Source: Planctomycetia bacterium (GTDB lineage: Bacteria; Planctomycetota; Planctomycetia; Pirellulales; UBA1268). Taken from it: DNA of 64,000 bases. How positions within the stretch are numbered: the first letter of the stretch is position 1; the number at the start of each line of letters is the position of its first letter. Positions 40,539 to 47,613 of this stretch are shown one piece after another. The DNA lies in NCBI GenBank assembly GCA_014192425.1, contig BJHK01000002.1:174147-238146 (forward strand). The letters are read 5' to 3'. The position numbers were made by a program, and so were the translations under genes. The notes beneath the pieces were generated by a model. The model was not told the DNA's origin and did no database searches. It was given only the letters and a program-made list of their open reading frames with translations.

Positions 40539-41666
40539 TCACTTGCCTGCCGGGGGCAGGCAGTAGACGAGGGCGAGGAGCGCGTAGCTCGTGACGAGCT
40601 TCGGGTTGTCCTCCATCCAGCGCCGGTCCTCGTTGACCCACGAGCCGTCGGGCCGCTGCTTGCCGATCACGACGTCGGAGAGCTCGCTGCGCCAATCATG
40701 CACCTTGCCCGCGGCGTCGGTGAACGTGTCCTCGCCGAGGACGGCGAGCGACTTGGCCGCGGTGTGGAGATAGTAGAACAGGCCCGACTGTCCCATGCCG
40801 GGGTTCTCCTTGAACGTGTAGTGCTTCCCCAGCCAGGTGACCGCCGCCTTGACACGCGGGTCGTCCTTCTTCAGGCCGGCATAGATCATGCTCTTCAGGC
40901 CGGCGTAGGTCATCGAGCCGTAGCTCCGCAAACCTCCCTCGGGCGTCTGGCCGGCCTGGCTCTCGCCGCCGGCGGCGGGGGTGTAGTAGAAGCCCCCTTT
41001 TTGGTCGTCGCCGGTCGCCTTGGCGGGGAACGGCTGGTCGTTGTCGGGCCCGACGAGGTTCTGTGTCCGCGACACGAAGACCAGCGCCTTCTGGATGGCG
41101 GGATCGGTGTCGCTGGCCCCGACGCTCTTCAGGGCCTCGATCATGAACTGCGTGTTGGAGAGGTCGGGACGCCCCTTCTTGCCGTAGCCGGCGCCGCCGA
41201 AGGCCGGATCGGCCCGGCCCTTGCCCTCGCCGTCGTCCCACTGGAGTTCGCGGATGTAGCCCTGCGCGTCCTTGATCTCCGCGTCGAAGCGGCCGTCCTT
41301 GTTTGCGGCCGCGAGTACGAGCATCGCCAAACCCGTCTCGTAGTTGCTGACGGGCGATTCCTTGCCGTGGATGCCGCCGTCAGGCTGCCTGAAGGACAGG
41401 ATGTACGTGATCCCCTTCTCGATGGCGGCCGCGTCCTCGGGCCGATCGGCCTTCGCCAGCGCCAGCACCGCCAACGCCGTGACCGCCGGCCCCGCCTCGG
41501 CCGCGAAGCTGCCGTCGGCGGCCTGCCCCTGCTCGACGAGGTACTTCGCACCCGTGGCGATCGCGGCACGGATCGCGGCCGGATCGGCGGCCGTCGCCGC
41601 CGGCATCACGAGACCGGCGAGCAGGATGGGGAGGAGCGGACGGTGCAGGCGCGATAGCCGGAGCAT
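40539..41666 (-). CDS. Secreted prenyltransferase/squalene-oxidase-repeat protein
   Basis: 375 residues. Signal peptide MLRLSRLHRPLLPILLAGLV ending near TAADP. Repeated alpha/alpha-barrel units follow: AIATGAKYLVEQGQAADGSF, IEKGITYILSFRQPDGGIHG, IQKALVFVSRTQNLVGPDND, VKAAVTWLGKHYTFKENPGM and a last IGKQRPDGSWVNEDRRWMED. The Q.(A/P)DGS(F/W) pattern is the QW-like repeat of squalene-hopene cyclase-fold proteins. The catalytic DxDD motif of real cyclases is absent and the length is about half, so it is more likely a binding or structural relative, common in planctomycetes. Its stop lies 88 bp from that of hemA (convergent). No partner can be inferred. Confidence 0.8.
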   Translation of the reverse strand: MLRLSRLHRPLLPILLAGLVMPAATAADPAAIRAAIATGAKYLVEQGQAADGSFAAEAGPAVTALAVLALAKADRPEDAAAIEKGITYILSFRQPDGGIHGKESPVSNYETGLAMLVLAAANKDGRFDAEIKDAQGYIRELQWDDGEGKGRADPAFGGAGYGKKGRPDLSNTQFMIEALKSVGASDTDPAIQKALVFVSRTQNLVGPDNDQPFPAKATGDDQKGGFYYTPAAGGESQAGQTPEGGLRSYGSMTYAGLKSMIYAGLKKDDPRVKAAVTWLGKHYTFKENPGMGQSGLFYYLHTAAKSLAVLGEDTFTDAAGKVHDWRSELSDVVIGKQRPDGSWVNEDRRWMEDNPKLVTSYALLALVYCLPPAGK

Positions 41667-42646: not shown

Positions 42647-43093
42647 TCAGCCACATTCCGGCTCGAGGGCGGTGATCTTGCCGACCCGCCGGGCGTGCCG
42701 CCCCCCCTCGAACGGCGTCGTCAGCCAGGTGCGGATGATCTTTTCCTGCACCTCGGGCCCGATCATTTCCGCCGACAGGCAGAGGACGTTGAGGTCGTTG
42801 TGCCGGCGGCTCATTTCGGCGGTCACCTCGTCGTGGCAGGTCGCAGCCCGGACACCGGCGAGTTTGTTGGCGGCGATCGCCATGCCCACGCCGGTGCAGC
42901 AGAGGAGGATGCCGCGATCGACGGCACCCGAGCTCACCTGCCGGGCGACGTCGGCGGCGATGTCGGGGTAGTCGACGGGTTCCTCACCCTGTGAGCCGCA
43001 GTCGATCACCTCGTTGTCCAGGCGCTCGAGCAGGCCGATGAGACGCTTCCGCGCCGACACGCCACGATGGTCGCTGCCGATGGCAATCCGCAT
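42647..43093 (-). CDS. rpiB: Ribose-5-phosphate isomerase B (RpiB/LacA/LacB family)
   Basis: 148 residues, normal length. MRIAIGSDHRGVSARKRLIG carries the phosphate-binding Asp8-His9, VDRGILLCCTGVGMAIAANK the catalytic Cys and anion hole, and AATCHDEVTAEMSRRHNDLN the second His/Asn pair; ALEPECG-like end. It interconverts ribulose-5-phosphate and ribose-5-phosphate. It lies 58 bp after the YrdC-like/phosphatase fusion on the same strand. That order parallels the Bacillus ywlC-ywlE-ywlF (sua5, arginine phosphatase, rpiB) arrangement, which supports the reading of the neighbour. Confidence 0.95.
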   Translation of the reverse strand: MRIAIGSDHRGVSARKRLIGLLERLDNEVIDCGSQGEEPVDYPDIAADVARQVSSGAVDRGILLCCTGVGMAIAANKLAGVRAATCHDEVTAEMSRRHNDLNVLCLSAEMIGPEVQEKIIRTWLTTPFEGGRHARRVGKITALEPECG

Positions 43094-43151: not shown

Positions 43152-44291
43152 TCAACGGCCGTCCCGGCCGGGCACCAGTGTATCGATTCTGGCGGCCACG
43201 TGCCCGCGAATCTGCCGGGCGCAGTCGAGGTAGGTTTCCAGCGTCCCGCCGATCGGGTCGAGAACGTCGCGCCGGTCCGGGTCGAGCACAGCCACGCGGC
43301 CGCCGGCTTCCGGGAACTGCGCCAGCACTGCAGCCCGGTGGGAGGCCGTCATCGTCAGGATCACGTCGGCCTGCTGGACGAGCGACTCGGTCAGCGGCTG
43401 GCTCTCGTGGCCGGAGAGGTCGCCCCCCATGCCGGCCATGGCCTCGACCGCGTGGCCGCTGGCACGGCCGCCGGCCCAGGCCGCCACCCCGGCGCTGGCG
43501 ACCACGATCCCGTGACGCTCGACCTCGTCGGGCCGGCAGCCGAGCCGCTCAGCGACGAGGAGGCGAAACAGCGTCTCGGCCATCGGGCTGCGGCAGGTGT
43601 TGCCGGTGCAGACGAAGAGCACCATCAGGCTCGACAGCCGGCGCAGCGTCTCCTCTCCGACCACGCCGGGCCGCACGACACGGAACGAGTCACCGGCGAA
43701 CTCGATCGTGGAGACGGCCTGGGCGTAGCGGGCCGGGCCGTCGTCGATGACCATGGCAAGGCCGTCCCCCGCGCGGCTGAGGACATCGGCCGCGGTCACG
43801 GCGGGGGGCTGGTCGGGGAGGCCCGGCTCCGCGAGGACCACGGGCCCGGCCAGCATCCGCAGGCAGTCGGCGAGCACGGAATGCCCGGGGATCCGCAGCC
43901 GCAGGCGGCCCGCGCAGACGATCGCTCGACGCGACTCCGCCGGCAGCCGATGGACGAGGCTCTCGGGGTGGTCGTCGGGAACGATCATCGCCACGGGACC
44001 GGGCCAGCAGCGGCGCGAGAGCCGCCGGGCGACAGGCGTCATCCGCGGCGCCCAATCGAGCGCCTCGGCGGCGCTGCGCAGGACGAGCGACAGGGGCGGC
44101 TCGCCGTCGCGCTCGACCGCCGCCGCGCGCAGGCGGACGGTGGCGGCGGCCTCGCGGGCGCTGGCGGCGATGACGTAGTCGGTCTCGGTCGGAAACGCCA
44201 CCAGCCGCCCTTCGGCGAGCGCCTGCACGGCGCGGTGCACGACGTCGCGCGGATCGTCGGTCCGGCGCAGGTCGATCACCAGTGGAGCCAT
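43152..44291 (-). CDS. Fusion: YrdC/Sua5-like domain + low-molecular-weight (YwlE-type) phosphatase
   Basis: 379 residues. Residues 1-215 have the YrdC/Sua5/TsaC fold signature: LAEGRLVAFPTETDYVIAAS (usually PTET.YGLG), EPPLSLVLRSAAEALDWAPR, RRLSRRCWPGPVAMIVPDDH and RLRLRIPGHSVLADCLRMLA. But the usual K-x-R before the Pro-rich turn reads VERDGEPP, and the S-x-N near the end of the fold is replaced by LAEPGLPDQ. Residues 223-379 are a complete LMW phosphatase: C228-T-G-N-T232-C-R234-S loop in MVLFVCTGNTCRSPMAET, and general acid D345 in VLDPIGG. Thr at 232 is the residue that favours phospho-arginine in Bacillus YwlE; tyrosine enzymes usually have Ile. The upstream domain may be regulatory instead of making threonylcarbamoyl-AMP. 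rpiB follows. Confidence 0.88.
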   Translation of the reverse strand: MAPLVIDLRRTDDPRDVVHRAVQALAEGRLVAFPTETDYVIAASAREAAATVRLRAAAVERDGEPPLSLVLRSAAEALDWAPRMTPVARRLSRRCWPGPVAMIVPDDHPESLVHRLPAESRRAIVCAGRLRLRIPGHSVLADCLRMLAGPVVLAEPGLPDQPPAVTAADVLSRAGDGLAMVIDDGPARYAQAVSTIEFAGDSFRVVRPGVVGEETLRRLSSLMVLFVCTGNTCRSPMAETLFRLLVAERLGCRPDEVERHGIVVASAGVAAWAGGRASGHAVEAMAGMGGDLSGHESQPLTESLVQQADVILTMTASHRAAVLAQFPEAGGRVAVLDPDRRDVLDPIGGTLETYLDCARQIRGHVAARIDTLVPGRDGR

Positions 44292-44547: not shown

Positions 44548-47500
44548 ATGACATTCACGCCCGCCCGCCGCCGCCACCGCCTCCCGATGCTGCGGGCCCT
44601 GCTCGCAGTCGGCGCCGTCACCTGCATGGCCGGCGCCGCCCTCGCGCAGCCGGCCACGCCCCCCGTGGTCGCGGCACTGCCGCCGGTGACCGCGGCCGGC
44701 GACGCCGCCCCGGCCGCCACGCGGCCGCAGCCCGCCCTGCCCGGAGCCTCCGCCCCGGCGGCCGTCGATCCCGCGGACCGGATCGTCGAGGTGCGGATCG
44801 AGGGAAATCACGCCACCGAGACGGCCAAGTTGCCGCAACTCGTCACCCGGGCCGGCCAGATCTTCGACCCGCAGGCGATCGAACAGGACGTCCGCTCGCT
44901 CCACCGGAGCCGCAAGTTCGTCGATGTGAAGCCGAAGTACGTCCGCATCCGCGAGGGCGTGGTGGTCATCTTCCAGGTCGTCGAGCGGCCGATGCTCCGC
45001 CACGTGAAGTACGTCGGCAACCGGCAGATCTCGACCCGGGTGCTGCGCAAGAAGGCGGAGATCGACGTCGGCGACGCGATGGACCCGTACATCGTCGAAG
45101 AGGCGCGGCGCCGCATCGAGTCGCACTACCACGAGAAGGGCTACGATGCCGCCCGCGTGACGACGGTCGAGGGAAGCAAGCCCGGCGACACGGGGGCCGT
45201 GTTCCTCGTCGACGAGGGGCGCAACCGCAAGGTCGCCTGGACGGGCTTCGTCGGCAACACGATCGCCAGCGACGCCCGCCTCCTGACCCAGATCAAGTCG
45301 AAGCCGGGCATCCTCTGGATGATCGGCGGCGACGTCGACCGCTCGGTCGTTGACGAGGACGTCGACCGGCTCACCGCCTACTACCGCAGCCTCGGCTTCT
45401 TCCAGGCCCGGGTCGGCCGTGAGATCGACGTCCTCCACGAAGGGAACAAGGACTGGGTCCACCTCACCTACGTCATCCACGAGGGGCCGCGATACACGGT
45501 CCGCAACGTGTCGTTCATCGGCAACGCCAAGTTCAAGACGGAGTTCCTCGAGCGCGATCTGGCGATGCGCAGCGGCCAGCACTTCAACCAGTCGAAGATG
45601 GAAGCCGACCTGAACAAAATCCGCGACGTCTACGGCGGCCGCGGATTCGTCTTCGCCGACGTCAAGGCCGACCCGCGGTTCCTCGAGCAGCCCGGGCAGC
45701 TCGACCTCGTCTACAACGTCGAGGAGGGACAGCGGTACAGGGTCGGCCAGATCAACGTGCGGATCCGCGGCGGCACCACCGACCCGCACACCCGGCACAG
45801 CGTCGTGATGAACCGGCTCTCGCTCCGCCCCGGCGACATCCTCGACATCCGCAAGCTGCGCGACGACGAGCGCCGGCTGAAGTCGAGCGGCCTGTTCCTC
45901 GCCGACGCGGCCAAGGGGGCGGGGCCGAAGATCGTGTTCACGAAGCCACAAGGCGACGGCGCACAGATGGCCCGCGATCCCGACCGGCCCGGCTTCCGCG
46001 GCCAGAGCCCCGACAGCGCGGACGACAGCGTGCTCAATATCGAGGTCGACGGCGACTGGCAGGACACGCCGGCGCGGACCGAGAGCATCGCGGCGCCGGC
46101 GGTGTGGCGCGGCCAGAGCCCGCTGCCGCAGTCCCCTCCCCAGCAGCCATACGCCCAGCCGGCCGTGCCGATGCAGCAGGCGTTTCAGCAGCCGGGGTTC
46201 GTTCCGCAGGGCTTCGTGCAGCAGCCGCTGCCCCAGCCGGGCATGCCGCCGCAGCCGCAGCCGGGCTGGGCCCCGGCACAGGCCTGGGGAGGTGCTGCCG
46301 CGGCCGTACCCGGTGGTCAGCCCTTGCCCCCGGTCTACACGGTCCAGCAGCCGGTCGCCCCCGCGTTCCCCGGCCAGCCGGCTGCGCCGGCGGGCTTCGC
46401 CGGCCAGCAGCCGCTGCCTGTCCAGCCGGTCGCGCAGTTCGATCCCAACCAGCCGCCCGGATTCCAGCCCCCCGCGCTCCCCGATTTCGGCGGCAGCCCG
46501 TTGCCCGTGTTTCCGGACGGCGACCGCTACGTGGTTCTCGACGTGGATGCGGAGGAGACGCAGACCGGGCGACTGATGATCGGGGCCGGCGTCAACTCCA
46601 ACGCCGGCCTCGTCGGCAACATCGTGATCGACGAGCAGAACTTCGACATCCTGCGCCTGCCGCGGAGCTGGGACGACGTCAAGAACGGCGTCGCCTTCCG
46701 CGGCGCCGGGCAGCGGTTCCGCCTGGAGGCCTCGCCGGGCACCCAGTTGCAGCGGTACATGGCGACGTTCCAGGAGCCGTACCTCTTCGACACCCGGATC
46801 GGGCTGTCGCTGTCAGCCTCCTACTACACCCGGGCGTTCTTCGACTGGGCGGAGTCGCGGACCGGCGGCCGCGTCGGCCTCGGCTACCAGTTCGCCTTCG
46901 CCCCCGACCTGTCCGTGAACGCCGCCTTCCGCGGCGAGAGCATCGACGTGTTCAATCCTCGCGTGCCGGGCGTGCCCGAGATCCAGCAGATGCTCGGCAC
47001 CAACGGGCTCTACGGCTTCAGCGCGGGCCTGATCCACGACACCCGCGACAGCCCGTTCATGCCGACGCAGGGGCACCTGGCGACGTTCGAGTTCGAGCAG
47101 GTGCTCGGCACCTTCGTCTACCCGCGCGGGATCCTCGAGGGGCGGCAGTACTTCCTCCTCAATGAGCGGCCCGACGGGTCGGGGCGGCACGTCCTCTCCG
47201 TCGGCTCGGTGCTCGGCATGTCGGGGCCCGACACGCCCGCGTACGACAACTTCTTCGCCGGCGGCTACAACACCCTGCGCGGCTTCACGTTCCGCGGGGC
47301 GAGCCCGCGGCAGGCAGGTTCCAACGGCCAGCTGGCCGTCGTGGGCGGCCCGTTCCAGTGGCTCAACACGATCGAGTACATGTTTCCGATCACCGCCGAC
47401 GACACGCTCCGCGGCGTCGTGTTCACCGACTTCGGCACCGTGGAGTCGAACGTCTCCATCAACGACATGCGCGTCGCCCCCGGCGTCGGCATGCGGATCA

Positions 47501-47613
47501 CGCTCCCGGCGATGGGGCCGGCCCCGATCGCGCTCGACTTCGCATTCCCCGTGGCCTACGCACCTTACGACAGCAAGCAGATCTTCAGCTTCTTCGTCGG
47601 CTTCGCCCGCTGA
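44548..47613 (+). CDS. bamA: BamA/Omp85-type outer-membrane assembly protein
   Basis: 1,021 residues. Signal peptide (LRALLAVGAVTCMAGAALAQ). Residues about 70-460 hold at least four POTRA domains: DRIVEVRIEGNHATETAKLP, LRHVKYVGNRQISTRVLRKK, KVAWTGFVGNTIASDARLLT, YTVRNVSFIGNAKFKTEFLE and YRVGQINVRIRGGTTDPHTR. Residues about 490-650 form a Gln/Pro/Gly-rich linker with no counterpart in proteobacterial BamA. Residues 650-1021 are the beta-barrel with the bacterial surface antigen signature, including IGLSLSASYYTRAFFDW, GLIHDTRDSPFMPTQGHLAT, GYNTLRGFTFRGASPR (the conserved RGF) and a terminal strand ending FSFFVGFAR. The aromatic last residue pattern is relaxed. It inserts barrel proteins into the outer membrane. 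A GT9 gene follows 49 bp later. Confidence 0.92.
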   Translation: MTFTPARRRHRLPMLRALLAVGAVTCMAGAALAQPATPPVVAALPPVTAAGDAAPAATRPQPALPGASAPAAVDPADRIVEVRIEGNHATETAKLPQLVTRAGQIFDPQAIEQDVRSLHRSRKFVDVKPKYVRIREGVVVIFQVVERPMLRHVKYVGNRQISTRVLRKKAEIDVGDAMDPYIVEEARRRIESHYHEKGYDAARVTTVEGSKPGDTGAVFLVDEGRNRKVAWTGFVGNTIASDARLLTQIKSKPGILWMIGGDVDRSVVDEDVDRLTAYYRSLGFFQARVGREIDVLHEGNKDWVHLTYVIHEGPRYTVRNVSFIGNAKFKTEFLERDLAMRSGQHFNQSKMEADLNKIRDVYGGRGFVFADVKADPRFLEQPGQLDLVYNVEEGQRYRVGQINVRIRGGTTDPHTRHSVVMNRLSLRPGDILDIRKLRDDERRLKSSGLFLADAAKGAGPKIVFTKPQGDGAQMARDPDRPGFRGQSPDSADDSVLNIEVDGDWQDTPARTESIAAPAVWRGQSPLPQSPPQQPYAQPAVPMQQAFQQPGFVPQGFVQQPLPQPGMPPQPQPGWAPAQAWGGAAAAVPGGQPLPPVYTVQQPVAPAFPGQPAAPAGFAGQQPLPVQPVAQFDPNQPPGFQPPALPDFGGSPLPVFPDGDRYVVLDVDAEETQTGRLMIGAGVNSNAGLVGNIVIDEQNFDILRLPRSWDDVKNGVAFRGAGQRFRLEASPGTQLQRYMATFQEPYLFDTRIGLSLSASYYTRAFFDWAESRTGGRVGLGYQFAFAPDLSVNAAFRGESIDVFNPRVPGVPEIQQMLGTNGLYGFSAGLIHDTRDSPFMPTQGHLATFEFEQVLGTFVYPRGILEGRQYFLLNERPDGSGRHVLSVGSVLGMSGPDTPAYDNFFAGGYNTLRGFTFRGASPRQAGSNGQLAVVGGPFQWLNTIEYMFPITADDTLRGVVFTDFGTVESNVSINDMRVAPGVGMRITLPAMGPAPIALDFAFPVAYAPYDSKQIFSFFVGFAR

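Follow-up and report, generated by a model that had tools for sequence, protein, structure and literature searches.

We wondered why a phosphatase should be joined to a TsaC/YrdC-like domain that appears to have given up its own catalysis. The question is raised by one gene in a planctomycete DNA stretch of 64,000 nucleotides (referred to here as the window), for which an original prediction had proposed a protein-arginine phosphatase of the YwlE type, fused to a degenerate YrdC domain and followed by rpiB. To our knowledge, work on protein-arginine phosphorylation has been confined almost entirely to Gram-positive bacteria, and the papers that we found on it in the open-access literature all deal with Bacillus or Staphylococcus. 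The same literature yielded nothing relevant on McsB or YwlE in planctomycetes.

Results

A TsaC-like domain and a YwlE-type phosphatase share one reading frame

The fusion is real: PF01300 and PF01451 both match the ORF (Table 1), and AlphaFold returned a confident two-domain model of the protein. The next gene is indeed rpiB, which lies directly downstream on the same strand and passes TIGR01120. Elsewhere, the window carries a BamA/Omp85 ORF (44548-47613, plus strand) with four POTRA stretches and Omp85 (Pfam), in which a long Pro/Gln-rich insertion separates the POTRA repeats from the barrel, and a secreted-looking protein (40539-41666, minus strand) with a squalene-hopene-cyclase C-terminal-like repeat domain (PF13243).

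Table 1. Positions of the fusion gene, its domains and motifs, and its downstream neighbour within the window
Feature	Position	Strand	Basis
TsaC-like/YwlE-like fusion ORF, 379 aa	43152..44291	-	ATG start; AlphaFold mean pLDDT 95, pTM 0.87
TsaC/YrdC-like domain, residues 24-209, predicted to be catalytically degenerate	43665..44222	-	PF01300 74.7 bits
Site of lost K-x-R motif (A58, E60)	44112..44120	-	Alignment with intact relatives
Site of lost S-x-N motif (E155, G157)	43821..43829	-	Alignment with intact relatives
LMW phosphatase (LMWP) domain, YwlE type, residues 224-362	43206..43622	-	PF01451 87.3 bits
Phosphatase P-loop C228-TGNT-C-R-S235, with Thr232 at the pArg-selecting position PX5	43587..43610	-	Sequence; role of PX5 from PMC8001253
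General-acid loop D345-P-I-G-G, YwlE-like in place of DPYYG	43245..43259	-	Sequence
rpiB, ribose-5-phosphate isomerase B, directly downstream of the fusion	42647..43093	-	NCBIfam TIGR01120 164 bits, above cut-off

The TC-AMP synthase motifs are missing from the TsaC-like half

TC-AMP synthases are recognized by a KxR/SxN tetrad (PMC10321239). The original prediction had reported both motifs absent, and the alignment bore this out. With the intact relative L171 as reference, K58/R60 of KxR are replaced by A58/E60 and the Ser and Asn of SxN by E155/G157, so that the tetrad is missing from the sequence of the window protein; in addition, the glycine of PTETxYG (G40) has become V40. The TsaC part scored 85.4 bits against TIGR00057, below the cut-off of 123.2 bits, which the fused TsaC domains of two relatives pass (G121, 152.7 bits; G005, 163.1 bits). 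Because the window protein lacks the tetrad and has the sequence features of a YwlE-type enzyme, it should not, on its sequence, be annotated as L-threonylcarbamoyladenylate synthase, and TC-AMP activity has presumably been lost from its TsaC-like half. The further description of this domain as nucleotide-binding found no support, because the motifs that contact the substrate are gone from the window protein and its closest relatives.

An old fusion found widely among Planctomycetota

Among 294 sampled Planctomycetota genomes, 261 match the window protein at E 1e-8 or better; this number is not a count of fusions, since most of the matches listed span both domains but the weaker ones include matches to a single domain. 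We extracted 99 fusions for counts of motifs, neighbours and co-occurrence. An additional scan of named genomes located the fusion in Pirellulaceae, Rubripirellula, Neorhodopirellula, Sedimentisphaerales and Phycisphaerae and, outside the Planctomycetota, in five Omnitrophota and on one contig binned as Aerophobetes. The architecture is not a product of chance, because it recurs in Pirellulales, Phycisphaerae, Sedimentisphaerales and Omnitrophota. Instead of being peculiar to the genome of the window, the fusion is old and spread throughout the phylum.

The surroundings recur as well. rpiB lies directly downstream on the same strand in 73 of the 99 fusion loci, and 94 of the 99 fusion genomes, as well as all 11 named ones, carry the arginine kinase McsB. 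Overall, the McsB family was detected in 280 of the 294 sampled genomes. Six nearly complete genomes of one family (f45: G070, G088, G106, G168, G195, G217) carry McsB with no LMWP detected, and kinase and phosphatase are thus not always found together.

Decay of the fused TsaC accompanies a separate Sua5

The genome of the window was searched for an independent, bona fide TsaC/Sua5 gene, and a canonical two-domain Sua5 was found on contig C17 with PTETVYGL, KGRP and PSAN intact. Across the fusion genomes, the state of the fused TsaC follows the presence of such a gene. Fusions in the 62 genomes without a long Sua5 keep TxT..G in 62 cases, the Lys in 59 and SxN in 61, versus 8, 1 and 5, respectively, in 28 genomes with Sua5. 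After nine more Sua5-positive genomes were added to these 28, the tetrad was degenerate in 35/37 Sua5-positive versus 4/62 Sua5-negative genomes.

The expectation that a degenerate domain goes with Sua5 and an intact one with none was set beforehand for 22 further named genomes and was right in 21 of them (degenerate with Sua5, 7/7; intact without Sua5, 14/15; Fisher p 5e-5, without correction for relatedness); a Rubripirellula MAG was the one miss. An independent-pairs test on the tree, which has few supported branches, gave only six pairs on supported branches, 3.8 for and 0 against the association, which falls short of significance (p 0.125). The same contrast recurs within four families (f30, f33, f47, f66) and partially in a fifth, f77, where the Arg of KxR is missing from G209 and G261. 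G121, G205 and G167, which belong to the same order as the window, have an intact domain and lack Sua5; at the scale of the phylum, the decay in the lineage of the window is therefore recent. Exceptions run in both directions. TsaC is intact despite Sua5 in G219, G031 and L173; it is degenerate with no Sua5 detected in G274 and in G289 (81% completeness). Also among genomes with no Sua5 detected, G029 shows only a change of K to R, and G188 has lost both K and R from KxR while SxN is retained.

Degeneracy is not a constant feature of the fused TsaC, whose motifs are intact in most fusions without Sua5. In several well-assembled genomes, such as G127 (one contig, 99% complete), the fused YrdC domain is the sole one. 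Since t6A is near-universal, we infer that the fused TsaC must be a working enzyme wherever it is the only YrdC domain of a genome. To the original prediction, a phosphatase tethered to a non-catalytic domain would be a new signalling arrangement. It was not put together as such a device but derives from a phylum-wide fusion in which TsaC is usually intact, and the window carries a derived form of this ancient fusion, with a predicted pseudoenzyme. The correlation with Sua5 alone leaves the order of events to inference.

The degenerate domain is a folded, probable pseudoenzyme

Loss of catalytic residues has left the fold standing. The modelled TsaC-like half has the YrdC fold, matching Pyrococcus abyssi Sua5 (6f89) with Z 26.0 and an rmsd of 2.3 over 206 residues; E. 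coli YciO (1k7j, Z 25.2) is among its closest structures. The intact relative L171 was modelled at a pLDDT of 94.9. In 35 degenerate domains, the fold-defining residues G28, W95, P96, G97 and G192 are retained in 97-100% and the catalytic Lys, Asn and Ser in 3%, 14% and 34%, respectively, and the frame is open over its full length in all 35 degenerate Sua5-positive fusions. Omega between the window protein and L174 (74% identical) was 0.17 for the TsaC-like part and 0.15 for the LMWP, and 0.05-0.09 for the TsaC-like part within genus g7, where the tetrad is likewise absent; dS was close to saturation in several of the pairs used. Because omega is low and fold residues are kept while catalytic residues are lost, the degenerate TsaC domain appears to be a folded pseudoenzyme and not a pseudogene.

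What might the domain be kept for? A remodelled pocket with a new catalytic or ligand-sensing role, which would turn the protein into a sensor-phosphatase, seems unlikely to us. Purifying selection that persists after loss of the tetrad would fit such a role, as would the structural closeness to YciO, a precedent with trace TC-AMP activity but another job (PMC12506659). However, the replacing residues vary by lineage (A, T, S, C or R at the Lys site; E, N, G, I or L at the Ser site), unlike what a single new conserved site would be expected to show.

It is improbable that the TsaC-like part is a decaying relic, still attached and of no use to the phosphatase, even though in most degenerate groups it changes at a higher rate than the phosphatase part (dN ratio mostly 1.2-2.7; in intact groups mostly 0.6-1.4). 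In the Sua5-positive genomes G231, G242 and G278 the LMWP found stands alone: these YwlE-like proteins (L265, L266 and L269, respectively) are without any TsaC-like part, as expected if the domain was lost altogether, and it is thus not indispensable everywhere. Against a relic speak the omega values of 0.05-0.17 in close pairs, the intact fold modelled at high confidence, the frames that stay open over their full length in the 35 degenerate Sua5-positive fusions and the retention of fold residues at 90-100%. We therefore prefer a pseudoenzyme that would be retained for the sake of the phosphatase.

The phosphatase half carries the signature of YwlE

The C-terminal half has the LMWP fold, with the PF01451 match and the catalytic residues C228 and R234 in a C-x5-R-S/T P-loop. 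Its model matches B. subtilis YwlE (4etn) with Z 25.0 and an rmsd of 1.2 over 144 residues, and Wzb at a nearby Z of 23-24. By sequence, B. subtilis YwlE is the best match in the PDB (86 bits, versus 40 for the tyrosine phosphatase Wzb and about 25-32 for human LMPTP).

The residue at PX5 selects phosphoarginine versus phosphotyrosine, according to Thr-to-Ile experiments summarised and repeated in PMC8001253. The motif C-TGNT-CRS with Thr232, to which the original prediction had drawn attention, is present, and it belongs to a family-wide signature: 82 of the 99 extracted fusions have Thr at PX5 and another 12 have Ser (Thr or Ser in 94/99). This differs from stand-alone LMWPs of the same phylum, 20 of which were sampled from its high-scoring matches; these have Ile at PX5 in 15/20 (mostly CLGNI or CMGNI), DPYYG in 11/20 and CTGNT in 0/20. 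Separate LMWPs of the PTP type also occur in several fusion-bearing genomes. Judging by these features, the phosphatase half of the window protein very probably removes phosphate from arginines, and its Thr at PX5 would, by the family rules, make it specific for phosphoarginine. An ordinary phosphotyrosine phosphatase is a very unlikely identity for this domain: the fold is common to all LMWPs, with Wzb nearly as close as YwlE by Z, and the original evidence on specificity was one residue, but Thr at PX5, DPIGG in place of DPYYG, the much higher sequence score to YwlE, the gene order tsaC-like/ywlE/rpiB, an arginine kinase in 94/99 fusion genomes and the separate PTP-type LMWPs in several of them all speak for the YwlE type.

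Variant P-loops occur in a few fusions. L154 (G052, CSANRCRS) and L155 (G072, CSGNRCRS) have Arg at PX5, outside both the phosphoarginine and the phosphotyrosine rule; both genomes have Sua5 and a degenerate TsaC. In one family (f61: L111, L115, L138, L139) the P-loop reads CTGNTDRS, with the second Cys changed to Asp. The second P-loop Cys is implicated in redox regulation of LMWPs.

Kinase, Clp and t6A genes accompany the fusion

An arginine kinase of the McsB type, which the original prediction had called for, was found in the genome. The one McsB, on contig C8, scores 450 bits against NF002194 (curated cut-off 385) and directly follows an McsA-like gene that scores 89 bits, below the cut-off of 210 for that model. 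Clp ATPases are represented by two Clp_N-bearing ORFs of about 900 aa, and the genome also holds TsaD and a shorter TsaD-family match that is probably TsaB. No LMWP other than the fusion was found in the genome (assembly 96% complete).

Discussion

We consider it likely that the window encodes a YwlE-type phosphatase tied to a TsaC-derived pseudoenzyme, which arose from a bifunctional ancestor when Sua5 displaced TsaC and which was kept for the phosphatase. The ancestor was probably a working TsaC-YwlE protein, because most fusions have an intact TsaC half, which is often the sole YrdC domain of its genome; this form would persist in most of the sampled planctomycetes. In the window's lineage, a separate Sua5 would have taken over TC-AMP synthesis, and the fused TsaC site would then have been free to decay, with loss of KxR, SxN and the PTETxYG glycine. 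Purifying selection would have held on to the folded domain as something that the phosphatase requires, and the domain may stabilise, dock or regulate its partner. McsB would mark proteins on arginine for ClpCP, and the YwlE half would take the mark off.

In B. subtilis, TsaD is a target of McsB/YwlE that is degraded by ClpCP (PMC7546277). A phosphatase joined to TsaC, whose product TC-AMP serves TsaD, would be in a good position to shield the t6A machinery. As a tentative hypothesis, to which we give limited credence, the fusion might couple t6A modification to phosphoarginine quality control: TsaC would recruit the phosphatase to the t6A synthase, TsaD would thereby be spared, and pseudo-TsaC would keep a docking or regulatory job after catalysis was lost to Sua5.

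These findings extend the kinase and a phosphatase of the YwlE type to Planctomycetota at large and to Omnitrophota; there, a covalent link joins the phosphatase to a tRNA-modification enzyme that is essential. In Sua5-positive lineages the fused TsaC seems to have lost catalysis repeatedly while keeping its fold. This represents a natural experiment in pseudoenzyme formation, in which an activity is displaced but the domain beside it remains necessary. According to PMC10321239, TsaC and Sua5 seldom occur together, and our data bear on this, as here the active site of one of them is lost. We found no account of a TsaC-YwlE fusion in the open-access literature that was searched, and its novelty is provisional.

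Among known systems, the phosphatase half resembles B. subtilis YwlE and Staphylococcus aureus PtpB in its LMWP fold, CTGNTCRS P-loop with Thr at PX5, DP-x-G-G loop, downstream rpiB and a genome that holds McsB. YwlE, however, is a free-standing protein of 150 aa, whereas the window's phosphatase makes up the C-terminal half of a fusion of 379 aa. Similarly, an LMWP of T. tengcongensis (4egs) is YwlE-like (73 bits) and bears in the PDB the molecule name RpiB, the neighbouring gene here, but the solved chain lacks a TsaC-like domain. The N-terminal half shares the full TsaC fold with TsaC/Sua5 (Z 26 to Sua5), and intact relatives pass TIGR00057; unlike these enzymes, the domain in the window has neither KxR nor SxN, comes without a SUA5 domain and has a phosphatase attached. 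The fusions named in PMC10321239 are HypF, TobZ and Sua5, with no mention of a phosphatase. TC-AMP synthases N-terminal to an LMWP do occur in two Firmicutes, Fermentithermobacillus (L233:3004-4542, P-loop CSGNTCRS) and Eubacterium (L197:2947-4431). In contrast to the window protein, both have three domains, PF01300, PF03481 (SUA5) and PF01451, and because SUA5 is included the Firmicutes Sua5-LMWP probably represents a separate fusion event. Finally, E. coli YciO is likewise a paralogue with the TsaC fold that does not serve as TsaC in vivo (PMC12506659), but it keeps most active-site residues, stands alone and bears a basic surface patch, unlike the pseudo-TsaC of the window.
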